Assembly (NCBI RefSeq): GCF_025231485.1
Contig: NZ_CP104003.1
Coordinates: forward strand, 496,001 to 560,000
Source: Salinirubellus salinus
GTDB taxonomy: Archaea; Halobacteriota; Halobacteria; Halobacteriales; Haloarculaceae
Length of the DNA: 64,000 nucleotides
Direction of reading: 5' to 3'
The position numbers and the translations under genes are program-made. Positions 29,554 through 42,629 of this stretch are shown one piece after another. Under the pieces are notes generated by a model, which did no database searches, was not told the origin of the DNA, and saw only the letters and a program-made list of their open reading frames with translations. How positions within the stretch are numbered: the first letter of the stretch is position 1; each line of letters opens with the position of its first letter.

Positions 29554-29961
29554 GTGAGCAATCCATGGATCGCTATCGGTGCGCTCGCGCTGGTGGGACT
29601 CCTCGTACCCCTCGTCATGGTGGGTGCGTCGAGTCTCCTCCGCCCGAGTGTTCCGGAGCAAGGTAAACGCGCCGTCTACGAGTCCGGCGAAGTCCCGACG
29701 GGCAACACGCGCATCCGCTTCAACATCCAGTACTACATGGTGGCGCTGTTGTTCGTCATCTTCGACATCGAGACCGTCCTCATCTTCCCGTGGACGGTCA
29801 TCTACCGGGACGCCGTGTCCTCGGCCGGCATCGTGCCGGTACTGGTACCGATGCTCGTGTTCATCGGCGTCCTCGTCGTCGGTCTGGCGTGGGCGTGGCG
29901 TAACGGCGCCGTCCGCTGGGTCAAGAGCCCGCGGGCGGACCGCAGAGAGACCGCAGAGTAA
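29554..29961 (+). CDS. nuoA: NADH-quinone oxidoreductase-like complex subunit A
   Basis: 135 residues, three membrane helices. Segments YESGEVPTGNTRIRFNIQYY and LLFVIFDIETVLIFPW are the quinone-site loop and helix 2 of NuoA. It is the first gene of the Complex I operon, with a GTG start and nuoB two bases downstream. The subunit lines the quinone cavity beside NuoH and NuoCD. A CTTATGTACGG element around 29514 may be the promoter. The electron donor is uncertain since NADH-binding subunits are not encoded here. Confidence 0.94.
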   Translation: MSNPWIAIGALALVGLLVPLVMVGASSLLRPSVPEQGKRAVYESGEVPTGNTRIRFNIQYYMVALLFVIFDIETVLIFPWTVIYRDAVSSAGIVPVLVPMLVFIGVLVVGLAWAWRNGAVRWVKSPRADRRETAE

Positions 29962-29963
29962 CA

Positions 29964-30638
29964 ATGAGTTCCGAAGACATACAGACGACGCAGGAAGCCC
30001 GCATGGGCGAGGGCGTCGACAACCGATTCAACTCGAAACTGCGTGAGGCGTTCGGCTCCTCGCCGTTCATCCTCACGAAGTTCGACAAGTTCATGAACTG
30101 GGTGCGGGGCTCCTCGATGTTCATGCTGCAGTTCGGCATCGCCTGCTGCAGCATCGAGATGATGCACACCTACGCGGTCAAGCACGACCTCGACCGCTTC
30201 GGTGCCGGTGTCCCCCGCGCGTCGCCGCGCCAGGCGGACGTCATCATCGTTCCGGGGACCATCGTCTCGAAGTTCGCCCCGCGGATGAAGCGCGTCTACG
30301 ACCAGATGCCCGAGCCGAAGTTCGTCGTCGGGATGGGCTCCTGTACCATCTCCGGTGGCCCCTTCCAGGAGGGCTACAACGTCATCAAGGGTGCCGAGGA
30401 GGTCATCCCGGTGGACATCCACGTCCCCGGCTGCCCGCCCCGCCCCGAGGCGCTGGTCTACGGCATCGCGAAACTCCAGGAACGTATCGCCAACGGCGAG
30501 ACGTCGCCGGTCACGGTCAAGCCGTACGAACTCGAGCAGTTCGGTGACCTCGACCGCGACGAACTCGTCCAGCACCTCGCCAGCGAGATCGACGAGGAGG
30601 ACCTCGTCATGCGCTACAACTGGGCCGATTCGCCATGA
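29964..30638 (+). CDS. nuoB: Complex I subunit B (cluster N2)
   Basis: 224 residues. The cysteines that hold the terminal 4Fe-4S cluster N2 are all present: C61 and C62 (GIACCSIEMM), C127 (GSCTIS) and C157 (PGCPPRPE). The N-terminal 50 residues contain a helix typical of peripheral contact with NuoH. N2 passes electrons to the quinone. The stop overlaps the nuoCD start by 4 bases (ATGA). Length is a little above bacterial NuoB because of the acidic C-terminal extension seen in haloarchaea. Confidence 0.96.
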   Translation: MSSEDIQTTQEARMGEGVDNRFNSKLREAFGSSPFILTKFDKFMNWVRGSSMFMLQFGIACCSIEMMHTYAVKHDLDRFGAGVPRASPRQADVIIVPGTIVSKFAPRMKRVYDQMPEPKFVVGMGSCTISGGPFQEGYNVIKGAEEVIPVDIHVPGCPPRPEALVYGIAKLQERIANGETSPVTVKPYELEQFGDLDRDELVQHLASEIDEEDLVMRYNWADSP

Positions 30639-32320
30639 GTCTGGAACGACCAGAGCGACCCGACAGCGGCGACCTCGTCGGCGTGACGGAGGACGGCATC
30701 GACTACGAGGCGCTCGAGGAACTGCTCGGCGACCTCGTCATCGGTCGCGAGAGCCACGTCAACGCGGAGGCGTTCGTCGTCCGACCGGACGAGGTCGCCA
30801 CCGCGCTCGGCACGCTCCGGAACGAGGCGGGCTTCGACCACCTCTCCTGTGTCACCGCACAGGAGTACGAGGACCGCTTCGAGTCCATCTACCACCTCCG
30901 GAAGTTCGACGAGCCGACCCACGAGGTCGGTCTCGTCGTGCCGACCGCGAAGGACGACCCGCGCAGCCAGTCCGGCAACTCGGTGTTCCGCACCGCCGAC
31001 TGGCACGAGCGCGAGGCCTACGACCTCGTCGGCATCCAGTACGACGACCACCCGGACCTCCGGCGCATCCTGTTGCCGGAGACGTGGCAGGGCCACCCGC
31101 TCGGGCTGGATTACAACCCCGAGAAGCCCCAGATCGTCACGCTCCGCGAGCACGCGAACCCGCTGGAGGAGGACCACCGTTCGGGCGAGAACAGCGACAC
31201 GATGTTCGTCAACATCGGGCCGCACCACCCCGCCACGCACGGTGTTCTGCACCTGAAGACGACGCTCGACGGCGAGCAGGTCGCGGACGTGGAACCGGAC
31301 ATCGGCTACCTCCACCGCTGTGAGGAGCAGATGTGCCAGCAGTCGACGTACCGTCACCAGATCATGCCGTACCCGGACCGCTGGGACTACATCTCGGCCG
31401 GCATCCTCAACGAGTGGGCGTACGCCCGCGCCGCCGAGGACATGGCCGACATCGAGGTCCCGGAGTACGCGCAGGTCATCCGGACGATGTCCGCCGAACT
31501 CTGCCGCATCGCGGCGCACCTGCTCGCGGTCGGCACGTTCGCGCTCGACGTCTACGGCGACTTCACGGCCATCTTCATGTACTCCACCCGGGACCGCGAG
31601 GTCGTCCAGAACATCCTCGAGGACCTCACGGGTCAGCGGCTGATGTTCAACTACCTCCGTCTCGGTGGCGTGGCGTGGGACCTCCCCGAGCCCCGCGAGG
31701 AGTTCTTCGAGAAGACGCGCGACTTCCTCGACGAGCTCCCCGGTCGGCTGGAGGAGTACCACGACATGATCACCTCGAACGAGATCTTCCAGATGCGGTG
31801 TGTCAACACCGGCGTCCTCTCGCCCGAGAAGGCCAAGTCGTACGGCGCGACCGGACCGGTCGCCCGTGGCTCGGGCATCGACTACGACCTCCGCCGCGAC
31901 GACCCGTACGGGTACTACGACGAACTCGACTGGGACGTCGTCACAGAGGACGGCTGTGACAACTACAGCCGGGTCCTCGTCCGGATGCGCGAGGTCGAGG
32001 AGAGCGCGAAGATCATCGAGCAGTGCGTGAACCTGCTCGAGGACTGGCCCGAGGAGGAGCGGACCATCCAGGCCAACGTCCCGCGCACCCTCAAGCCCGA
32101 CCCGGACACCGAGATCTACCGGGCGGTCGAGGCCGCGAAGGGTGAACTCGGCATCTACATGCGCTCGGACGGCACGGACAAGCCGGCGCGGTTCAAGATC
32201 CGGTCGCCGTGCTTCTCGAACCTGCAGACGCTCCCGGAGATGTCCGAGGGTGAATACGTGCCCGACCTCATCGCCTCGCTCGGCAGCCTCGACATCGTGC
32301 TCGGGGAGGTGGACCGGTGA
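30635..32320 (+). CDS. nuoCD: Complex I fused subunit C/D
   Basis: 561 residues. Residues 30-165 are NuoC (30-kDa subunit signature around ADWHEREAYDLVGI...DLRRILLPE, 121-149). From about residue 188 the NuoD (49-kDa) domain begins with NIGPHHPATHGVLH (193-206), followed by YLHRCEEQ, RTMSAELCRI and the C-terminal DIVLGEVDR. The HHPATHG loop lies at the quinone head-group site. C/D fusion is standard in haloarchaea as in enterobacteria. The end overlaps nuoH as GTGATG. Its large size and perfect motifs leave little doubt. Confidence 0.96.
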   Translation: MSLERPERPDSGDLVGVTEDGIDYEALEELLGDLVIGRESHVNAEAFVVRPDEVATALGTLRNEAGFDHLSCVTAQEYEDRFESIYHLRKFDEPTHEVGLVVPTAKDDPRSQSGNSVFRTADWHEREAYDLVGIQYDDHPDLRRILLPETWQGHPLGLDYNPEKPQIVTLREHANPLEEDHRSGENSDTMFVNIGPHHPATHGVLHLKTTLDGEQVADVEPDIGYLHRCEEQMCQQSTYRHQIMPYPDRWDYISAGILNEWAYARAAEDMADIEVPEYAQVIRTMSAELCRIAAHLLAVGTFALDVYGDFTAIFMYSTRDREVVQNILEDLTGQRLMFNYLRLGGVAWDLPEPREEFFEKTRDFLDELPGRLEEYHDMITSNEIFQMRCVNTGVLSPEKAKSYGATGPVARGSGIDYDLRRDDPYGYYDELDWDVVTEDGCDNYSRVLVRMREVEESAKIIEQCVNLLEDWPEEERTIQANVPRTLKPDPDTEIYRAVEAAKGELGIYMRSDGTDKPARFKIRSPCFSNLQTLPEMSEGEYVPDLIASLGSLDIVLGEVDR

Positions 32321-33402
32321 TGCCGGTCGACCCCGTGGTCGCACAGACCACCGTCGACACGCTCGGGAGCCTGCTCGGACTGGGCGAACTCAGCCCGCTC
32401 GAGGACTTCCTGCTCTCGTTCGTCGTGGCCGGTGGAATCGTCACGTTCCTGCTCACGCTCGTGGCGGTCTCCGGCATCTGGGGCAAGCGGAAGATCACGG
32501 CGGCGTTCACCGACCGCATCGCGGTCAACCGCATCGGACCGTTCGGCCTCCTCATCATCGTGGCCGACGCGGTGCGACTCCTCTCGAAGGAGCTCATCGT
32601 CCCCGAGGGCGTCGACCGTCCCGCGTGGGACATCGCCCCGTTCGTGATGGTGTCGAGCGCGCTGCTCGGCTTCGCCGTCATCCCGATGGGGAGCGGCATC
32701 CAGCTGGCCGACCCCGAGGTGGGACTGGCCTACGTCTTCGCGGTGGCGTCCATCGCGTCCGTCGGGCTCGTCATGGCCGGCTACTCCTCGAACAACAAGT
32801 ACTCGCTGCTCGGCGGCCTGCGCGCCGTCGCACAGAACCTCGCCTACGAGATTCCGCTCATCCTCACGGCTGCGTCGGTAGTCATCTTCGCCGGCACGCT
32901 CCAGATGAGCGGCATCGTCGAGGCGCAGAACGTGGCGCTCGTCGACCTCGGCGGTTTCGGCATCAAGTCCTGGTACGCGTTCGTGAACCCGTTCGCGTTC
33001 CTGCTGTTCATGGCGGCGAACCTCGCTGAGGTCGGCCGGAACCCGTTCGACATCCCGGAGGCACCGACCGAGATCGTCGCCGGGTGGCAGACCGAGTACT
33101 CCTCGGTCTACTTCGTGCTGGCGTACCTCTCCGAGTTCATCCACATCTTCCTCGGCGGGGCCATCATCACGACCATCTTCCTCGGCGGCCCGACGAGTCC
33201 CATCGTCGGCCTCGAGATCCTGCCCGGCTTCGTCTGGTTCGTCATCAAGATCCTGGCGGTGTACCTGTTCACCCAGTGGATGCGCTCGGCCATCCCGCGT
33301 GTCCGCATCGACCAGCTCATCGAGATCGGCTGGAAGGGGATGCTGGTGCTCTCGTTCGCGAACCTCGTGCTCACGGCGGTCATCGTGGGGCTGATAGTAT
33401 GA
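32320..33402 (+). CDS. nuoH: Complex I subunit H
   Basis: About 360 residues with eight to nine membrane helices. Conserved parts: ERK-like GKRKITAAFTDRIAVNRIGPFGLL, then ADAVRLLSKE in loop 1, ANLAEVGRNPFDIPEAPTEIVAGWQTEYS for the quinone-chamber loop and RIRVDQL-like VRIDQLIEIGWK near the end. It forms the quinone tunnel with NuoB and NuoCD. The start can be GTG 32317 or ATG 32320; the latter is used here. It overlaps nuoI by 4 bases. Confidence 0.95.
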   Translation: MPVDPVVAQTTVDTLGSLLGLGELSPLEDFLLSFVVAGGIVTFLLTLVAVSGIWGKRKITAAFTDRIAVNRIGPFGLLIIVADAVRLLSKELIVPEGVDRPAWDIAPFVMVSSALLGFAVIPMGSGIQLADPEVGLAYVFAVASIASVGLVMAGYSSNNKYSLLGGLRAVAQNLAYEIPLILTAASVVIFAGTLQMSGIVEAQNVALVDLGGFGIKSWYAFVNPFAFLLFMAANLAEVGRNPFDIPEAPTEIVAGWQTEYSSVYFVLAYLSEFIHIFLGGAIITTIFLGGPTSPIVGLEILPGFVWFVIKILAVYLFTQWMRSAIPRVRIDQLIEIGWKGMLVLSFANLVLTAVIVGLIV

Positions 33403-33860
33403 TCGGACTACTCAAATCGATGGCAACGACGATGAAACACGCGCTCGACGGGAACACGTTCACCGTGGAGTACCCGGAGACGGCCCCCGAGGTCAGTCCC
33501 CGGTTCCGCGGTGTCCACAAGTTCTCCCAGGAGCGCTGCATCTGGTGTCGCCAGTGCGAGAACGTCTGTCCGAACGACACCATCCAGATCGTCACGGACG
33601 ACCAGCGCAACGGCGAGCAGTACAACCTCCACATCGGCCAGTGTATCTACTGCCGGCTGTGCGAGGAGGTCTGCCCCGTCGACGCCATCCTGCTCACGCA
33701 GAACTTCGAGTTCACGGCGGACACCAAGGACGAGTTCGCCTACAACATGGAGCAGCTGAAGAACGTCCCCTGGTACAAGGACATCGACCCGCTCGCCTCC
33801 CGCGAGCCCGACCGCGGTGCGTGGATCGGGGAGGGTGAGGGGGAAGTGGACTACCAGTAG
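33399..33860 (+). CDS. nuoI: Complex I subunit I (two 4Fe-4S clusters)
   Basis: 153 residues. Two ferredoxin motifs bind N6a and N6b: C47, C50, C53, C57 (CIWCRQCENVCP) and C82, C85, C88, C92 (CIYCRLCEEVCP), with the order completed by proline after the fourth cysteine. It relays electrons to N2. The C-terminal acidic tail is haloarchaeal. It is the last gene of the first Complex I block: in other haloarchaea nuoJ follows at once, whereas here the sequence runs into a T-rich stretch (TTTTCTCG) and strong hairpins before unrelated genes. Confidence 0.96.
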   Translation: MIGLLKSMATTMKHALDGNTFTVEYPETAPEVSPRFRGVHKFSQERCIWCRQCENVCPNDTIQIVTDDQRNGEQYNLHIGQCIYCRLCEEVCPVDAILLTQNFEFTADTKDEFAYNMEQLKNVPWYKDIDPLASREPDRGAWIGEGEGEVDYQ

Positions 33861-33881
33861 ACGACCAAACTTTTCTCGTCG

Positions 33882-33963
33882 GGTTCGCGCGAAGCGCGAA
33901 CCGCTCTCTGCTCGCGGGCGCGCAGCGCCCGCTCGCATGGTACGTGGTGGCTCCGCCACCACG
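33882..33963 (+). repeat. Three consecutive perfect GC-rich triloop hairpins
   Basis: Right behind nuoI: stem GGTTCGCGC with loop GAA (33882-33902), stem GCGGGCGC with loop GCA (33914-33932), and stem CGTGGTGGC with loop TCC (33943-33963). All stems are perfect, 8-9 pairs, with 3-base loops. A weaker CGCGGC/GCCGCG pair lies at 33991-34014. They could end or process the first nuo transcript. No gene is seen in 33861-34088. Confidence 0.65.
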
Positions 33964-34088
33964 CTCCTCGAAAACCTTGGATTCAGAACGCGCGGCTCGC
34001 TGGCGCTCGCCGCGGGTAGCTACACTCGACTGCCCCAGCACCGCTACCGCACCGGAGATTTATCAAGGAGAGCGCAGCATCCGAGAGT

Positions 34089-35018
34089 ATGCCCCTCCGT
34101 GTTGCCCTCCGCCTCCTGGACGACCGGTACGACGGCCAGCCAGCCGTGTGGCTCGTCGGCCTCGCGTTCGGTCTCGTCCTCGGCGCGGGCTACGCCCTGC
34201 TGTTCGTCGTCGACTCGCCCGTCACGAACGCCGTCGGCTACGCCGCGTTCGTCCTGCTCGTCGCTCCACTGTTCGGCGCGGCGCTCTGGCCGTACGCGCG
34301 GGGTGAGCCGCCCGGATCGCTCCGGACCCTCGTGCGCGACTCGCTCCAGCGGTACCCCCGCCTGCTCGGTGCCCGCGTGGCCTACACGCTCCTGTTGCTC
34401 GCGGCCGCCCTCGCGCTCGTGTCGCTCGCAGGCGTGCTGGCGACGCTCGCGTCCGCCGGGAACTACCTGCTCGGCGGCGGCGCGACGACGCTGGGTGAGC
34501 GCGCGGCGACGGGGACGGCCGCCCTCGTCGCTGCCGCGCTGGTACTTGTCGGTCTGAGCGTCGCTCGTGTGCTGTTCGGTTTCCTCGACGCGGCCGCGCT
34601 CGAGCGAGGGACCATCCGCGGGGTGCTGGACGAGGCACTCTCGGCGGTCCTGCGCGCACCGGGTCGCGTCGTGGCCGCCACGGCTGGCCTCGCCGTCTAC
34701 CGCGTCGGGGTCCCGCTCGTCTTCTACTTCTTCGTCGCCACGAACGTCGACACGTACCGGTTCGTCGAGCGAGCGTTCCAGAGTCCACGGCTGGCCATCG
34801 TCCCGCCCGACGCCCCGTCGTACGCCTCGGCGCCCGACCCATCACTCGCCCCCGAACTGCTGGCCGGCCTCGTGCTCGTCGACGTGCTGGTCACGACGGC
34901 CGTCTGGCCGGTGGCGCTCGGGTACCACTTCACGCTGTTCGAGACGATCCGGGCCCACCGTGCCGAGGACGACAGAGAGACGGCGTCGGCGCCGTCGACG
35001 GCGCCCGAGGCTCAGTAG
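34089..35018 (+). CDS. 309-aa multi-span membrane protein, unknown
   Basis: Six to seven hydrophobic helices rich in Ala, Leu and Val, a ARVAYTLLLLAAALALVSL helix and an FYFFVATN segment ahead of an outer loop of about 60 residues, and an acidic tail. Similar multi-span proteins are widespread in haloarchaea and sometimes resemble glycerophosphoryl-diester-type membrane domains, but I cannot name this one. It lies inside the gap that splits the Complex I genes and converges with the next gene, overlapping it by 7 bases at the stop codons. No Complex I motif is present. Confidence 0.65.
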   Translation: MPLRVALRLLDDRYDGQPAVWLVGLAFGLVLGAGYALLFVVDSPVTNAVGYAAFVLLVAPLFGAALWPYARGEPPGSLRTLVRDSLQRYPRLLGARVAYTLLLLAAALALVSLAGVLATLASAGNYLLGGGATTLGERAATGTAALVAAALVLVGLSVARVLFGFLDAAALERGTIRGVLDEALSAVLRAPGRVVAATAGLAVYRVGVPLVFYFFVATNVDTYRFVERAFQSPRLAIVPPDAPSYASAPDPSLAPELLAGLVLVDVLVTTAVWPVALGYHFTLFETIRAHRAEDDRETASAPSTAPEAQ

Positions 35019-35947
35019 TGCAGGAGGTCAGCGAGCAACTGCTGCAGCGTCGGTGACGCGCCTGCGGGCTGGCGTACCTCCGCGGTGCCGTACTGGTCCA
35101 CGCGCGTCTCCACCTCGTACTCGACGGTCTCCTGCCCGAAGGTCTCGCCCGCCTCACGCGGGGGCACGTCGTAGCGGAGGACGCGCCGTTCGCGGATGGT
35201 CCGGAGCCGGCCCGTCTCCGCGTCGACGGTGACGCTGATGCGACTGCCGTCGAGCAGTTCGGCGCCGAACGGTATGGGCCGCGTCTCGAAGTGCTGGTCG
35301 GCCTCGTCGATGACGTAGGTGCGGGTGCCGTTCGACCGGTCGGCGACCCGCCACGAGGCGTCGTGGGGGACGAACACGTCGCCGTAGAGTTCGCGGACGT
35401 TCTCGCGCGCTACGTCCGCGGCCCGGTTCGGGTCGACGAACCGCGGCGGAGCGTTCGAGTCGGGTCCGTACACCGTCGCGTTCGCGTCCGCACCGACCCC
35501 CACCTCGCTGACGAAACCCCCGTCCGTGTGGTATATCACGGTCCGTCCCGGCCGTTCGAGGATGCCTGCGTGGAGGAACGCCCCGAACGAGTGGAACTGC
35601 GTCGAGCGGTTCACGGGGTCGCTCCTGCCCGGCGTCGCGTAGGTGTCGTAGACCGCGAGGTGCTGTTTCTCGGAGAACTCACGCAGGTGCGTGTACTCGG
35701 CGTGGAGGTCGCGGTCACCCGTGTCGTCGACGACGTACACGCGCGTGACGAGGCGGTGGTCGAGGACGTTCAGCAGACGCCCGGACTGCTGGACCACCTC
35801 GCGCGGCGGCTGGTCCGTGTCGACGGTGGTCTCCCCCGCCGGATACGGGGCCCCGACGTCGGCGATGCGGACGCCCGCGGTGATACCACCGAGCGCGAGG
35901 CAGACGAGCAGGACGGCGACGACCTGCCGCGAGGTTGGGCGGTTCAT
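35012..35947 (-). CDS. 311-aa secreted or anchored protein, unknown
   Basis: An N-terminal hydrophobic segment (VVAVLLVCLALGGITAGV, about residues 9-26) acts as a signal or anchor; the residue before the cysteine does not fit a lipobox. The outer domain is strand-rich and acidic, with a repeated pattern of short VxVDDTG and TVDAETGRLRTIRERR strands near residues 235-255 that recall PepSY-like beta folds, though this is weak. Its start overlaps the end of the next lipoprotein gene by 4 bases, so the two form an operon opposite to the nuo genes. Confidence 0.6.
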   Translation of the reverse strand: MNRPTSRQVVAVLLVCLALGGITAGVRIADVGAPYPAGETTVDTDQPPREVVQQSGRLLNVLDHRLVTRVYVVDDTGDRDLHAEYTHLREFSEKQHLAVYDTYATPGRSDPVNRSTQFHSFGAFLHAGILERPGRTVIYHTDGGFVSEVGVGADANATVYGPDSNAPPRFVDPNRAADVARENVRELYGDVFVPHDASWRVADRSNGTRTYVIDEADQHFETRPIPFGAELLDGSRISVTVDAETGRLRTIRERRVLRYDVPPREAGETFGQETVEYEVETRVDQYGTAEVRQPAGASPTLQQLLADLLHY

Positions 35948-36432
35948 CCGTCCTCCGTCGCCGTCCCGTCGGCCGTCGGCCGAGGTGTCGGGGTGGGTGT
36001 GGGCTGCTCCTCGGCCCGGTAGACGTCGAGCGAGACGGAGTTCTCGCCGTCGGGGCCGGTCCAGACGACCCGGACGTCGCCACGGGACGGGGCGGGGACG
36101 CGGATCTCGTCGCCGACGCCGACCGGGAACGACTGGGTGGCCCCCCCGTCGTCGGAGTCGTCCGCTCGGACGTCGGTCCCGGCCCAGAGGCGCGAGTTCG
36201 CGCGCTCGTCTCGCGGGTCGACTCTGACCACGAGGGCGCCGGTGTTCTCGGCGGTGAACTCGTTACCGGCGGCGTGTCGAACGCGGTAGGCCGAGTCCCC
36301 GGGGAGATACTCGTACTCGGCTCGGAGCTGTGGTTCGTTGGCGTTCGCGCCGGGAGTCCGTGGACTGCCACGGAGGGGTAGACAGCCGGCGAGGGCTGCG
36401 GACCCGGCGGCGAGGAGGGCGCGACGGTCCAT
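35944..36432 (-). CDS. Tat lipoprotein with type IV pilin-like outer domain
   Basis: 162 residues. A twin-arginine-like start MDRRALLAAGSAAL leads to the lipobox LAGC (C17). The outer part has segments VRHAAGNEFTAENTGALVVRVD and GDEIRVP...GDVRVVWTG that resemble the C-terminal half of haloarchaeal pilin_N-type proteins (beta sandwich with a closing VWTG strand), followed by a Thr/Pro-rich tail with TPTPTPRPT. It is probably a surface lipoprotein with a pilin-like module and O-glycosylated tail. It is encoded divergently from nuoJ, 160 bases away, and likely shares a regulatory region with it. Confidence 0.68.
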   Translation of the reverse strand: MDRRALLAAGSAALAGCLPLRGSPRTPGANANEPQLRAEYEYLPGDSAYRVRHAAGNEFTAENTGALVVRVDPRDERANSRLWAGTDVRADDSDDGGATQSFPVGVGDEIRVPAPSRGDVRVVWTGPDGENSVSLDVYRAEEQPTPTPTPRPTADGTATEDG

Positions 36433-36592
36433 GCGGTGGACACCCTCCGGTTCGTGAAAGTCCTGTGGGTCGATACGTGCGCTGGGACGGTGTGGACGGG
36501 CCCACGACGGGGAGAGTGAGGCTGTTTTCGGCCGCCCGCACGCACGCGGGAAACAGCAAGCTTGAAACCGATTCTCCGTAAGGTGGTACGTA

Positions 36593-36865
36593 ATGGCTCT
36601 ACTGGAGACACTGACGTTCGCGCTGTTCGCGCTGGTGACGGCCGGCAGCAGCCTGGGCGTCGTGTTGGTCCGGGACGTCTGGCACGCGGCCCTGTTGTTG
36701 GGCGTGGCGCTGACCAGCGTCGCCGTCCACTACGTGATGCTCCGCGCGGAGTTCCTCGCGGCGATGCAGATACTGGTGTACGTGGGTGGGGTACTCATCC
36801 TCATCACGTTCGCCGTGATGCTCGTCCGTGAGCAGGGCCCCGAGACGGAGGTGACCCGCGCGTGA
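36593..36865 (+). CDS. nuoJ1: Complex I subunit J, N-terminal part
   Basis: 90 residues, three membrane helices. The VVLVRDVWHAALLLGVALTSVAVHYVML and QILVYVGGVLILITFAVML segments are the first helices of NuoJ, including the helix-3 pi-bulge region with YVGG. In haloarchaea NuoJ is split into two adjacent genes. It ends in a GTGA overlap with nuoJ2. This gene needs its own promoter here because nuoI is 2.7 kb away. The upstream stretch has GCAAGCTTGAAACC (36556-36569), perhaps containing it. Confidence 0.93.
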   Translation: MALLETLTFALFALVTAGSSLGVVLVRDVWHAALLLGVALTSVAVHYVMLRAEFLAAMQILVYVGGVLILITFAVMLVREQGPETEVTRA

Positions 36866-37212
36866 CGACGCGCCCCCGACTCGAACGGAACAAGCGACAG
36901 GCCGTCGGCCTGCTCGCGTTTGTCCTGTTCGGCGTCCTCTCGGCGGTGTTCCTCGCCGCCGAGTTCGGAACCCCGGCCGGCTTCCCCGGCGAGGGTTCCA
37001 TCACCGCCTCCATCGGGTACGCGATGTTCAACCTCGCAGGCGGCGCGTTCGACGCCGAGGGGTTCCTCATCGTCTTCCTGGTCATCGCGCTGGTACTGGA
37101 CGCGGCGCTCGACGCCGCTGTGATGCTCGGCAGCCGCGAGACGGAGGAGGGAGGGTTCCTCCCCCTGACCGACGGCGGCAAGGACGACGAACGGAAGGGG
37201 GGTGACCGCTGA
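36862..37212 (+). CDS. nuoJ2: Complex I subunit J, C-terminal part
   Basis: 116 residues with a GTG start overlapping nuoJ1 and a stop overlapping nuoK (TGATG). Two hydrophobic helices (about 14-33 and 68-92) match helices 4 and 5 of NuoJ; SITASIGYAMFNLAGGAFDAEGFLIVFLV is the outer loop and last helix. The tail is charged. It forms part of the proton path with NuoK in the membrane arm. Confidence 0.88.
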   Translation: MTTRPRLERNKRQAVGLLAFVLFGVLSAVFLAAEFGTPAGFPGEGSITASIGYAMFNLAGGAFDAEGFLIVFLVIALVLDAALDAAVMLGSRETEEGGFLPLTDGGKDDERKGGDR

Positions 37213-37517
37213 TGGCGGTCCCGACCGAGTACTACCTCGTCCTCTCGGCGGCCGTGTTCTGTATCGGCCTGTTCGGCATCCTCACGCGACGGAACGCGCT
37301 GATGTTCCTGATGAGCGTGGAGCTGATGTTGAACGCCGCGAACATCAACCTCGTCGCGTTCTCGTTCATGCACGGGAACCTCACGGGACAGGTGTTCAGC
37401 CTGTTCACGATGGCGCTGGCGGCGGCCGAGGTGGCCGTCGGCATCGGCATCATCCTCGTGCTCTACCGCAACTTCGAGGACGTCGACGTGACCAAGGCGA
37501 CGACTCTGAGGTGGTAA
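37212..37517 (+). CDS. nuoK: Complex I subunit K
   Basis: 101 residues, the standard length. Three helices; the conserved glutamates for proton movement lie in SVELMLNAANIN and ALAAAEVAVGIGI. The opening YYLVLSAAVFCIGLFGILTRRNALMFLM and the ending ILYRNFEDVDVTKA-like segment are typical of NuoK. The gene is packed between nuoJ2 (1-base overlap) and nuoL (3 bases later). Confidence 0.96.
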   Translation: MAVPTEYYLVLSAAVFCIGLFGILTRRNALMFLMSVELMLNAANINLVAFSFMHGNLTGQVFSLFTMALAAAEVAVGIGIILVLYRNFEDVDVTKATTLRW

Positions 37518-37520
37518 ACT

Positions 37521-39569
37521 ATGGCAGAAGGAATCTTCGCGTTCGTCCCGGCTATCGCCGCGTTGCCGTTCGTCTCGTTCCTGCTCGCGCTCGTCGCGGG
37601 CAAGTACCTCCCCAAGCGCGGTGCCATCGCCGGCATCGCGGCGATGACGGGGTCACTCATCATCTCGGTGCTCGCACTCCTCTCGGTGGCCGGTATCATC
37701 GGTGAACCGGGCATCAGTCAGGAGGTGCTCTACCAGTGGACGATCGGACAGGGGACGTTCGACCTCCACTTCGGCATCCTCGTCGACCAGCTCTCGGCGC
37801 TGATGCTGGTCATCGTCTCGCTCGTCTCGCTGCTGGTCCACGTGTTCTCTCTGGGCTACATGAACGACGAGGGCGAGACCGGCCTCCCGCGGTACTACGC
37901 CGAACTCGGCTTCTTCTCGGGGTCGATGCTGGCGTTCGTGATGGCCGACAACCTCCTGATGGCGTTCATGTTCTTCGAACTCGTCGGGCTGGCGTCGTAC
38001 CTGCTCATCGGCTTCTGGTTCCGCGGGCCGTCGCCGCCGTCGGCCGCGAAGAAGGCGTTCCTCGTCACCCGCTTCGGTGACTACTTCTTCCTCATCGGCG
38101 TGATCGCCGTCTTCGCCACGTTCGGCACCGCCGGGTTCGCCGGCAGCGAGGGGTTCCCCCACCTCGCCGAACAGGCGCTGAACGGCGAGCACTCGGTGAC
38201 CACGTTCTTCGGCCTCGGTGAACAGGCGTGGTTCACCGTCGTGGGCCTGCTCGTCCTCGGTGGCGTGATGGGCAAGTCCGCGCAGTTCCCGTTCCACACG
38301 TGGCTCCCGGACGCGATGGAGGGTCCGACCCCCGTCTCGGCGCTCATCCACGCCGCGACGATGGTCGCCGCCGGCGTCTACCTCGTCGCCCGGATGTACG
38401 GCTTCTACGCGGTCTCCCCGACGGCACTCGCCGTCATCGCGTTCGTGGGTGGGTTCACCGCCCTGTTCGCGGCGACGATGGGCGTCGTCAAGGAGGAGAT
38501 CAAGCAGGTGCTCGCGTACTCCACCATCAGCCAGTACGGCTACATCATGCTCGCGCTGGGGACGGGTGGCTACATCGCGGGCGTCTTCCACCTCACCACG
38601 CACGCCATCTTCAAGGCACTCCTGTTCCTCGGGGCTGGCTCGGTCATCATCGCGATGCACCACAACGAGGACATGTGGGACATGGGTGGGCTGAAGGACA
38701 AGATGCCGGTGACCTACTACGCGTTCCTCTCCGGGTCGCTGGCGCTCGCGGGCATCATCCCGTTCTCCGGCTTCTGGTCGAAGGACGAGGTGCTGTTCGA
38801 GGCGCTCATCCACGGCCTCGGCAGCCCGCTCCTGCTCGGCGCGTGGGCGATGGGCCTGCTCGCTGTCTTCTTCACCGGCTTCTACACCTTCCGGATGGTG
38901 CTGCTCACCTTCCACGGTGAACCCCGGTCGGACACCGCGCGTGACCCGCACGGCGTCCGCTGGAACGTGAAGGGGCCGCTCGCGGTGCTCGGGACCCTCG
39001 CCGCGGTCGTCGGCGTCATCAACCTCGTGCCCGTCGAGAAGTTGACGGGGGCGAACATCGACTTCCTGCACGACTTCCTGAACGCGGACTCGGCGAACGC
39101 GGCGTTCGTCGGCTTCCACCACTACGAGGTCCTGCTGGAGGAACAGGCCGGCATCGCACCGTCCTACATCGGTGGGGAGATAACCACGCTGCTCGCGTCG
39201 GCCGCGCTCTCGCTCGGTCTGGCGCTCGCGGGTGCGGGCCTCGCGTTCGCGCTCTACCGCGGTCCCGAGCCCGAGCGTCACACGGAGAAACTCGGTTCGG
39301 TCAGAGACTTGCTCTTCAACAACTACTACCAGGACGAGTATCAGGTCTGGCTGGCACAGGACGTCGGCGTGGGCATCGCCCGCGTCGCCGACCGGTTCGA
39401 CCAGGGGGTCGTCGACGGGGCGGTGAACTTCGTCTCCTCCGTCTCCCTGTTCTCCGGTGACCGCCTGCGGCGCATCCAGACCGGCATCGTGTCCAACTAC
39501 GCGGCCCTCGTCACCCTGGGGCTCGTACTGCTGCTGGTGGCGTTCGGCGTCACCGGGGGGTGGTTCTAG
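37521..39569 (+). CDS. nuoL: Complex I subunit L (proton pump)
   Basis: 682 residues, about 16 helices. Antiporter-like core with MFFELVGLASYLLIGFWF (functional glutamate), FPFHTWLPDAMEGPTPVSALIHAATMVAAGVYL, AYSTISQYGYIMLALGTGG and FSGFWSKDEVLF. The long lateral helix HL expected in NuoL is represented by the C-terminal region after residue 550, which includes LLFNNYYQDEYQVWLAQDVG. One base separates it from nuoM. It is one of three homologous proton-pumping subunits. Confidence 0.96.
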   Translation: MAEGIFAFVPAIAALPFVSFLLALVAGKYLPKRGAIAGIAAMTGSLIISVLALLSVAGIIGEPGISQEVLYQWTIGQGTFDLHFGILVDQLSALMLVIVSLVSLLVHVFSLGYMNDEGETGLPRYYAELGFFSGSMLAFVMADNLLMAFMFFELVGLASYLLIGFWFRGPSPPSAAKKAFLVTRFGDYFFLIGVIAVFATFGTAGFAGSEGFPHLAEQALNGEHSVTTFFGLGEQAWFTVVGLLVLGGVMGKSAQFPFHTWLPDAMEGPTPVSALIHAATMVAAGVYLVARMYGFYAVSPTALAVIAFVGGFTALFAATMGVVKEEIKQVLAYSTISQYGYIMLALGTGGYIAGVFHLTTHAIFKALLFLGAGSVIIAMHHNEDMWDMGGLKDKMPVTYYAFLSGSLALAGIIPFSGFWSKDEVLFEALIHGLGSPLLLGAWAMGLLAVFFTGFYTFRMVLLTFHGEPRSDTARDPHGVRWNVKGPLAVLGTLAAVVGVINLVPVEKLTGANIDFLHDFLNADSANAAFVGFHHYEVLLEEQAGIAPSYIGGEITTLLASAALSLGLALAGAGLAFALYRGPEPERHTEKLGSVRDLLFNNYYQDEYQVWLAQDVGVGIARVADRFDQGVVDGAVNFVSSVSLFSGDRLRRIQTGIVSNYAALVTLGLVLLLVAFGVTGGWF

Positions 39570-41135
39570 ATGCTGATCGAACTGCTGCTGGCGCTCTGCC
39601 TGCTCGGGGCGGGGGTCGTCTTCTTCCTCCCCGACCGGTTCGCGCCGAAGGCGTCGCTCGGCATCTCGCTCGCGCCGCTCGCCGTCTCGCTGTACATGTA
39701 CGCCGTCTACGACGGCACGGGCAACGCGCTCATCGACGGCTCTGGCTCCATCGCCTTCGAGTCGATGGCCGAGTGGATCGCCGTCGGCCCCTACGCGCTG
39801 AACTGGCACGTCGGGCTCGACGGCGTCTCGATGCCACTCGTCCTGCTCTCGACGGTGCTGGTCCCGCTGGCCATCCTCGCCTCGTGGACCCCCATCGACG
39901 ACCGCGAGAGCCAGTTCTACGGGCTCGTCCTCTTCATGGAGGCGGCCCTCATCGGTGTGTTCGCCGCGCTGGACTTCTTCGTCTGGTTCGTCTTCTGGGA
40001 GGGCGTCCTCATCCCGATGTACTTCCTCATCGGCGTCTGGGGCGGCCCGCGCCGGAAGTACGCGGCGATCAAGTTCTTCGTCTACACGAACGTCGCGTCG
40101 CTGGTGATGTTCATCGGGTTCTTCGGGCTCGTGTTCGGGCTGGGTGACAGCATCACGACGCTCGACATGCCGGCCATCGCCGGGGCGCTCCGCGCGGGCG
40201 AACTCGCCGCGCTCGGGCCCATCGGGCCGGAGCTGCTGGCGGTGCTCGCGTTCTTCGCGATGTTCGTCGGCTTCGGCGTGAAGGTGCCCATCGTCCCGTT
40301 CCACACGTGGCTGCCGGACGCTCACGTCGAAGCCCCGACGCCTATCTCCGTGCTGCTGGCGGGGGTACTCCTGAAGATGGGGACGTACGCGCTGCTCCGG
40401 TTCAACTTCACGATGCTGCCCGGCGTCGCCCAGGACTACGCGGTGGTCATCGCCGCGGTCGCCGTGATCTCGGTCATCTACGGCGCGATGCTCGCGCTGG
40501 CACAGCAGGACCTCAAGCGCATCGTCGCGTACTCCTCCGTCTCGTCGATGGGGTACGTCATCCTCGGACTGGTCGCGTACACCACGTACGGCTTCGGTGG
40601 CGCCACGTTCCAGATGGTCGCCCACGGCCTCATCTCGGGGCTGATGTTCGCCTGCGTCGGCGTCATCTACAACGTCACGCACACGCGCATGGTCGGGGAC
40701 ATGTCCGGACTCGCGGATCGGATGCCCATCACGACCGGCGCGTTCGTCGCGGGGGCGTTCGGCTACGCCGGACTCCCGCTGATGGCCGGGTTCGCCGCGG
40801 AGTTCTTCATCTTCGTCGGCGCGTTCCAGTCGACCGTCATCCCGAACGACGGGATGGCTATCATGACGGGAGTGGCGATGTTCGGCATCGTCATCGTGGC
40901 GGGCTACCTGCTCTGGGCGATGCAGCGGACGCTGTTCGGCCCGTTCAGTTACGACGGTGACTACGAGATCCGCGAGGCAGCGCGCCACGACGTGGTGCCG
41001 CTGCTGACGCTCATCGTGCTCATCGTCGCGCTGGGCACGTTCCCGAACGACATCTTCTTCGACATGATTCAGGATGCGATCAACCCCGTCATCGACATGG
41101 GTGGCGTGGTGCTGGACTACGGAGGTGGTGCATAG
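39570..41135 (+). CDS. nuoM: Complex I subunit M (proton pump)
   Basis: 521 residues, about 14 helices, starting directly after nuoL. FWEGVLIPMYFLIGVWGGPRRKYAAIKFF holds the functional glutamate and the RKYAAIKFF helix start; VPFHTWLPDAHVEAPTPISVLLAGVLLKMGTYALLRF is the discontinuous helix 7 region, and AYSSVSSMGYVILG the helix 8 region. Order and motifs are of NuoM rather than NuoN. The stop is followed immediately by the nuoN ATG. Confidence 0.96.
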   Translation: MLIELLLALCLLGAGVVFFLPDRFAPKASLGISLAPLAVSLYMYAVYDGTGNALIDGSGSIAFESMAEWIAVGPYALNWHVGLDGVSMPLVLLSTVLVPLAILASWTPIDDRESQFYGLVLFMEAALIGVFAALDFFVWFVFWEGVLIPMYFLIGVWGGPRRKYAAIKFFVYTNVASLVMFIGFFGLVFGLGDSITTLDMPAIAGALRAGELAALGPIGPELLAVLAFFAMFVGFGVKVPIVPFHTWLPDAHVEAPTPISVLLAGVLLKMGTYALLRFNFTMLPGVAQDYAVVIAAVAVISVIYGAMLALAQQDLKRIVAYSSVSSMGYVILGLVAYTTYGFGGATFQMVAHGLISGLMFACVGVIYNVTHTRMVGDMSGLADRMPITTGAFVAGAFGYAGLPLMAGFAAEFFIFVGAFQSTVIPNDGMAIMTGVAMFGIVIVAGYLLWAMQRTLFGPFSYDGDYEIREAARHDVVPLLTLIVLIVALGTFPNDIFFDMIQDAINPVIDMGGVVLDYGGGA

Positions 41136-42629
41136 ATGGCGATAACCCCCGACTGGGCCGCGATGGCGCCGGTGCTGGTGCTCGCCGTGTTCGCGCTGCT
41201 GCTGTTCGTCGTGGACAGCATCGACCCGGACTCGACGAACAACCCGCTGCTGGCGGGTATCGCGGCGCTCGGGAGTGGGACGGCGATGATCGTCGCCCTC
41301 GTCTACCTCCTGAGCGGGGTCGGCCAGACGGACGGTGCCATCTCGCTGTACGGCGGACAGCTCGTCGTCGACGGGATGTCGCTCCTGTTCATCGTCATCT
41401 TCACGAGCGTCGCCACGCTCGTCCACGTCGGCTCCATCGACTACCTCGCGGACCTGGAGTACCAGGCCGAGTACTACATGCTCGTCACCCTGGCCACCCT
41501 GGGGATGAGCCTGATGGCGACCGCGGGGTCGCTCGCGACGGTGTTCGTCTCGCTCGAACTCGCCTCGCTCCCGTCCTACGCACTCGTGGCGTTCCTCAAG
41601 AACAACCGCGGGAGCGTCGAGGCCGGCCTGAAGTACTTCCTCATCGGTGCGCTCGCGTCGGCCATCTTCGCCTACGGCATCTCGCTGGTGTACGGCGTGG
41701 CGGGTGCGCTGAACCTCGAGGCCATCGCCACCGCCGTGGCCGGCACGGAACTGGTCGGCATCCTCGGCGTCGGCATCCTCATGATCACGATGGGGTTCGC
41801 GTTCAAGACGGCCAGCGTCCCGGTTCACTTCTGGGCGCCGGAGGCCTACGAGGGTGCGCCCGCACCCATCAGCGCGTTCATCTCGTCGGCCTCGAAGGCC
41901 GCCGGGTTCGTCGTGCTCTACCGCGTGTTCGTCGTCGCGTTCCCCATCTCGGCGGTCGCGTCGGCCATCGACTGGGTCCTGCTGTTCCAGGTGCTGGCAA
42001 TCGTGACGATGACTGTCGGGAACTTCGCCGCGGCCACGCAGGAGAACGTGAAGCGGATGCTGGCGTACTCCTCCATCGGCCAGGCCGGCTACGTCCTCAT
42101 CGGCGTGGCCGCCCTGACCGGCGTGGGTGACCAGTCACTCGCGTTCGGCGCCGGGATGCTCCACATGCTCGTCTACGGCTTCATGAACACGGGCGCGTTC
42201 CTGTTCATCGCCATGGGCGAGTACTGGGGGCTCGGCCGCCGGTTCGAGGACTACAATGGCCTCGCGAAGAAGGCGCCCGTCGCCTGCGTCGCGATGACCG
42301 TGTTCATGTTCTCGCTCGCGGGCCTGCCCATCGGCGGCGGGTTCCTCTCGAAGTACTTCCTGCTGCTCGGGACGGTCAGCGCGGGGGTCTGGTGGCTCGG
42401 CGCGGTGCTGGCCATCAACAGCGCCCTGTCGCTGTTCTACTACAGCCGCGTGGTGAAGGCGATGTGGATCGAGGAGCCGAACGGCAATCTCGAAGCCATC
42501 GACCGGCGTGGATACCCCTCGGGCCTCTACGCCGCCGTGATCGTCGCGGGCGTCGTCACCGTCCTCCTGCTGCCCGCCATCGGGCTCTTCTCGGGGACGG
42601 CGTTCGACGCTGCCGCCGCGCTGCTGTAA
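41136..42629 (+). CDS. nuoN: Complex I subunit N (proton pump)
   Basis: 497 residues, about 14 helices. SLELASLPSYALVAFLKNNRGSVEAGLKYFLIGALASAIFAYGISLVYG is typical, as are VPVHFWAPEAYEGAPAPISAFISSASKAAGF and AYSSIGQAGYVLIGV. It closes the membrane arm at the NuoA/J/K side. It is the last gene of the Complex I set: no nuoE, nuoF or nuoG follows, and the next gene points the other way. The complex should therefore accept electrons from a donor other than NADH through the peripheral arm, as proposed for archaeal 11-subunit forms. Confidence 0.96.
   Translation: MAITPDWAAMAPVLVLAVFALLLFVVDSIDPDSTNNPLLAGIAALGSGTAMIVALVYLLSGVGQTDGAISLYGGQLVVDGMSLLFIVIFTSVATLVHVGSIDYLADLEYQAEYYMLVTLATLGMSLMATAGSLATVFVSLELASLPSYALVAFLKNNRGSVEAGLKYFLIGALASAIFAYGISLVYGVAGALNLEAIATAVAGTELVGILGVGILMITMGFAFKTASVPVHFWAPEAYEGAPAPISAFISSASKAAGFVVLYRVFVVAFPISAVASAIDWVLLFQVLAIVTMTVGNFAAATQENVKRMLAYSSIGQAGYVLIGVAALTGVGDQSLAFGAGMLHMLVYGFMNTGAFLFIAMGEYWGLGRRFEDYNGLAKKAPVACVAMTVFMFSLAGLPIGGGFLSKYFLLLGTVSAGVWWLGAVLAINSALSLFYYSRVVKAMWIEEPNGNLEAIDRRGYPSGLYAAVIVAGVVTVLLLPAIGLFSGTAFDAAAALL

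Follow-up and report, generated by a model that had tools for sequence, protein, structure and literature searches.

Complex I locus

The window, the 64,000-nucleotide stretch of the Salinirubellus salinus genome analysed here, carries a complete single set of haloarchaeal nuo genes (nuoA, B, CD, H, I, J1, J2, K, L, M and N) on one strand. Genes were called from an open reading frame (ORF) listing and with a codon-usage gene caller. Block 1, nuoA-nuoB-nuoCD-nuoH-nuoI (29554..33860, + strand; ORF listing, gene caller and Pfam), encodes the Q-module and the membrane subunits A and H. It consists of nuoA (29554-29961), nuoB (29964-30638), nuoCD (30635-32320), nuoH (32317-33402; Pfam NuoH) and nuoI (33402-33860; Pfam NuoI), all on the + strand, with a tight spacing that ranges from overlaps to a few nucleotides, as in relatives. 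Block 2, nuoJ1-J2-K-L-M-N (36593..42629, +), starts with nuoJ1 (36593-36865, +; Pfam NuoJ). A 2.7-kb insert with three non-nuo genes, two of them antisense, separates nuoI from nuoJ1, so that the locus is not a contiguous single-operon cluster. The earlier note on this DNA had ended nuoA-B-CD-H-I at 33860 and started nuoJ1 at 36593 with three unrelated genes between, and the ORF listing and the gene caller agree with it.

The gene set and order, A-B-CD-H-I / J1-J2-K-L-M-N, are the same as in the nuo cluster of Haloferax volcanii (HVO_0979 is its nuoB), which likewise lacks nuoE, F and G. One paper (PMC8305020) reports for haloarchaea a highly conserved nuo gene order and a lack of NuoEFG. The difference is at the nuoI/nuoJ1 junction, which is about 46-123 nt long in contiguous Haloferacales loci and 2.7 kb long with three genes in the window.

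One copy each of nuoH, nuoI and nuoJ1 was found genome-wide, and this is the sole complex I locus. Complex I formation therefore needs expression of both blocks. Two membrane subunits, A and H, are encoded in block 1. The split therefore does not coincide exactly with that between peripheral arm and membrane arm, and the division by arms in the earlier note is only roughly right.

The nuoI/nuoJ1 junction in haloarchaea

Ten nuo junctions were measured in 80 named haloarchaeal loci. For nine of them, the median was between about -9 and 29 nt and no true case exceeded 600 bp, the sole outlier (M|N in L069) lying in a locus cut off by a contig end. The nuoI/nuoJ1 junction exceeded 600 bp in 11 of 66 loci, and a further 10 loci had no nuoJ1 in the DNA fetched, some of them because of contig ends.

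In the family of the window, nuoI and nuoJ1 were both found in 134 sampled genomes, in 109 of them on one contig. Among these 109, the gap was below 500 bp in 44, 0.5-1 kb in 7 and 1-10 kb in 36, and in 22 the two genes were far apart or on opposite strands. In the other 25 of the 134, they were on different contigs, which is partly an effect of draft assembly. In 58 of the 109 same-contig genomes, nuoI and nuoJ1 were thus unlinked or at least 1 kb apart, and contiguity is therefore not a defining feature of nuo in this family. The contiguity that the earlier note expected of haloarchaeal nuo clusters is seen in most sampled loci of Haloferacales and Natrialbales (gaps of -7 to about 123 nt), and is not the rule in the window's own family. 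In the genera g4, g13, g14, g21 and g22, the two nuo halves were unlinked in every sampled genome.

A quick tree was made from NuoH, I, J1, J2 and K of nearly all the split genomes and only some of the tight ones. The state of the junction (tight, with insert, or unlinked) changes at least 26 times on it, an approximate number because sampling of the tight genomes was incomplete and the tree has open forks.

End of the first block

The sequence directly 3′ of nuoI is ACTTTTCTCG. A terminator-like element (33868..33963, +) consists of a TTTTC tract at 33870-33874 and three hairpins with arms of 9-13 nt (33882-33902, 33909-33937 and 33943-33963, +). The predicted RNA fold of 33861-34040 had z = -3.2 against shuffled sequences. 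In a GC-rich genome, a T-tract no more than a few tens of nucleotides behind a stop codon is the mark of the T-stretch terminators experimentally proven in H. volcanii (PMC7237163). As in these, the tract is followed by C just after the stop codon and hairpins are nearby; unlike these, it lies within a dispersed structured repeat found behind many genes. This 3′-end repeat (33861..34054, +) has 31 matches in its own genome; of 18 copies inspected, 13 begin no more than about 15 nt past the stop codon of a codirectional gene. It resembles a terminator cassette that is mobile or propagates. We also considered whether repeats on both flanks had caused the insertion and rejected this, as no further copy of the repeat behind nuoI lies near nuoJ1.

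T-tracts are enriched after nuoI family-wide. TTTT within 45 nt after the nuoI stop codon was present in none of 18 loci with overlapping genes, 3 of 28 with gaps of 42-130 nt, 19 of 32 with gaps of 130-500 nt and 39 of 85 split loci. As a control in the window, it followed none of 24 tight codirectional gene pairs and 2 of 10 codirectional pairs at least 100 nt apart. TTTT is not a universal terminator mark, because it was present at none of the 26 gene ends in the window that face a gene on the opposite strand. We infer that the T-tract and hairpins after nuoI probably terminate transcription.

A promoter-like element upstream of nuoJ1

A 16-bp promoter-like element, CAGCAAGCTTGAAACC, was found at 36554-36569 (+) by matrix score and by alignment of the upstream regions of relatives. 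The family consensus is TAGAAATCTTCAAAGG. Many loci have the BRE-like CGAAA, a published haloarchaeal BRE motif (PMC4983044), in the place where the window has CAGCAAG. The TATA part is TTCAAA or TTGAAA and not the canonical TTWT. The 5′ end of the element is 38-46 nt before the nuoJ1 ATG across loci (39 nt in the window), a spacing that fits a short-leader transcript. A haloarchaeal core promoter has the BRE CGAAA, a TATA part about 27 nt upstream of the start and a short leader. In comparison with this, the region has parts that resemble BRE and TATA at a fixed distance from the ATG.

The presence of the element followed the length of the junction. With a matrix trained without the window and a threshold of more than 8 bits at the expected place, it was detected in all 132 loci with a nuoI-nuoJ1 gap of at least 42 nt, whether contiguous, filled or unlinked (window included). 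It was detected in none of the 18 loci with a shorter gap or an overlap, which belong to Natrialbaceae-type genera. In L008, L019, L070 and other Natrialbaceae loci of this kind, nuoI and nuoJ1 overlap or are less than 42 nt apart and the element is absent, as if these loci had returned to a single operon or had never left it.

The element is also specific to nuoJ1. The copy in the window scored highest of the 127,970 positions there with 13.7 bits, which is weak by the family standard (median about 26 bits). A looser pattern matched 127 of the 132 nuoJ1 upstream regions with a gap of at least 42 nt and none of 1,235 upstream regions of other nuo genes; its only match in the 64-kb window was the nuoJ1 site. 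A strict exact pattern had 16 matches in 57 whole genomes, all at nuoJ1, and zero control matches. One motif shared by the promoters of nuoA and nuoJ1 was rejected: nuoA scored -6.9 with the nuoJ matrix, and its upstream region in relatives is of the usual TATA type (CTTATATGG).

The element is probably a promoter, and block 2 very probably has one of its own. The earlier note had arrived at the same view of block 2 and proposed a transcription start near 36560; the element is at 36554-36569. The anatomy supports this view, with the element 39 nt 5′ of nuoJ1 and the terminator-like sequence after nuoI.

The element might instead be a site for binding of a regulator, because it is more conserved and more gene-specific than the usual core promoter and has a non-canonical TATA part. 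We consider it unlikely that it serves for regulator binding or RNA processing while nuoJ-N is transcribed mainly by read-through from nuoA. Its restriction to nuoJ (16 of 16 matches) and its greater constancy than the usual TATA region would fit such a site. The nuo operon of H. volcanii was reported among transcripts of more than 7 ORFs (PMC6490895), which would fit as well; read-through can, in view of this transcript, coexist with an internal promoter. Against this explanation, the BRE-like CGAAA and the fixed distance to the ATG are those of short-leader or leaderless haloarchaeal promoters, and two leftward genes lie between the blocks in the window. The element is also kept where nuoJ-N is unlinked by hundreds of kilobases, which makes read-through impossible.

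Genes inserted at the junction

The three genes of the insert were designated X1, X2 and X3. X1 (34089-35018, +) encodes a protein of 309 amino acids with six hydrophobic spans; a TATA-like TTTATC is about 30 nt 5′ of its ATG. X2 (35012-35947, -) encodes an exported or membrane-anchored protein of 311 amino acids with one N-terminal span. X3 (35944-36432, -), which overlaps X2 by 4 nt, encodes a Tat-type lipoprotein of 162 amino acids with a lipobox-like LAGC in its N-terminus (MDRRALLAAGSAALAGC). None of the three belongs to a known family: searches against Pfam and NCBIfam gave zero family matches, and the matches to PDB profiles obtained with X2 homologues were no better than chance. The rightward multi-span protein and the leftward pair described in the earlier note were found again; "pilin-like" as a description of X3 was dropped, since the signal behind it is only the lipobox-like one.

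The same block is present in an independent genome, G048, of the sister genus g6 (sister to the window with support 97 in the tree of NuoH, I, J1, J2 and K). Identities are 54% for X1, with the homologue in the same place, 53% for X2 and 54% for X3. Order and orientation, X1(+)/X2(-)/X3(-) directly before nuoJ1, are kept, and the split is therefore not an assembly error. The trio was absent from the three other sampled g6 species. Comparison of the junction in relatives, the check proposed in the earlier note, thus found a split that recurs among the 109 family genomes and this particular trio only in G048. An old arrangement with the same three genes throughout the family, which the earlier note had set against its own reading, was not seen: only one other genome had a strong X1 match, and a search of 342 genomes of the order gave no second one (G048 was not listed as a match in that draw).

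In several other genera, X2 and X3 are neighbours at sites away from nuo, and X2 homologues extend to other families of the order. In genus g3 (L139, L144, L146, L148 and L149), the X3-X2 pair adjoins, far from nuo, a gene for an enzyme of about 400 amino acids that by eye is TIGR00300-like.

The block is not recent, because it is common to the window and a species of the sister genus at 53-54% identity. It probably dates from before, or about the time of, the separation from the sister genus. An old transfer would explain its distribution as briefly as a common ancestor that had the block, followed by two losses.

Junction genes were also called in 46 linked genomes (gaps of about 0.4-10.4 kb) and, for 17 unlinked genomes, next to either end of the break. 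They were mostly lineage-specific and unrelated to one another. Their Pfam names include sodium/calcium exchanger, response regulator, DNA methylase, bacteriorhodopsin-family protein, AI-2E transporter, DUF456, cupin and M19 peptidase. The bacteriorhodopsin-family gene between nuoI and nuoJ1 in L162 (G050) is halorhodopsin-like. Two genomes of one genus have a second full-length nuoCD between nuoI and nuoJ1 (L178:2353-3996 and L181:2349-4025), 73-74% identical to NuoCD of the window and downstream of the usual first copy. In g13 (L209, L211 and L213), the unlinked nuoJ-N is just 3′ of what reads as a cytochrome oxidase subunit I gene, so that the membrane block has joined another respiratory locus there.

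A functional tie of X1-X3 to complex I (in assembly, membrane insertion or regulation), with a position set by selection, appears very unlikely to us. Their order and orientation beside nuoJ1 are kept in two genera, and X1 is a membrane protein and X2 and X3 are envelope proteins, as such a tie would suggest. However, strong X1 matches are found in two genomes only, three of the four g6 species lack the trio, the X2-X3 pair travels far from nuo in other genera, and unrelated genes occupy the site in relatives. We take X1-X3 to be tolerated passengers at a weak point, probably without a role in complex I.

The earlier note had offered a recent insertion or inversion as one possibility. An event of this kind in this lineage alone, which would have split a contiguous operon and created or captured the promoter, is largely refuted and highly improbable: the mostly contiguous loci of Haloferacales and Natrialbales and the absence of X1 from nearly all other genomes favour it, but G048 has the same block in the same place, all four sampled g6 species and the neighbouring genus g9 are split too, the promoter element is also present in contiguous relatives, the genes called at the junction included no integrase, transposase or tRNA, and the GC content of X1-X3 (70-73%) is near the window mean (69%). 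The combination expected of a mobile-element insertion (mobility genes, lineage-restricted cargo and an empty site in close relatives) was not found, and the other g6 species have other cargo.

A probable arrangement in two transcription units with a permissive junction

The explanation that we favour, and regard as probable, is that the haloarchaeal complex I cluster consists of two neighbouring transcription units with a junction permissive for insertion, X1-X3 being one block of cargo. The nuoA-I unit would end at the terminator formed by the T-tract and hairpins. The nuoJ1-N unit would start from its own promoter, with the element about 40 nt 5′ of the nuoJ1 start codon as its core. DNA between nuoI and nuoJ1 would then be selectively cheap because block 2 is independent of read-through from block 1, and the junction was apparently broken repeatedly in the family because block 2 has its own conserved promoter. 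Time and again in this family, the junction has been widened or broken up, and unrelated genes have filled it or been lost from it.

The loci can be arranged in a series: overlap without the element; gaps of 46-130 nt with the element and rarely the terminator mark; gaps of 130-500 nt with both in most; insertion; and unlinking. The direction of this series in time would be as listed if the Natrialbaceae state is not a loss, which it could be.

We also considered a further reading, in which a dedicated nuoJ-specific element (consensus TCGAAATCTTCAAAGG) controls J-N separately from A-I and underlies the stepwise break-up of the operon. We hold this to be possible, with somewhat less than an even chance.

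Relation to other operons

When their gaps widen, haloarchaeal operons acquire internal promoters, and the insertion of genes may break them up (Seitzer et al. 2020; PMC7760734). That study makes no mention of nuo; here, the junction of one core energy complex shows the whole series, with a nuoJ-specific element. Among the papers that we searched, none was on the nuoI/nuoJ junction or on the nuoJ1 element. Break-up of haloarchaeal operons with internal promoters is thus known in general, and the nuoI/nuoJ1 case with its element would be a new variant.

Complex I operons often count as a textbook case of a conserved cluster that needs co-expression. In haloarchaea, one junction of this cluster broke many times while the others stayed tight. 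The loci provide a natural series for studying operon decay without loss of a stoichiometric complex. If the nuoJ-specific element acts as suggested, it would allow the two halves of complex I to be controlled separately.
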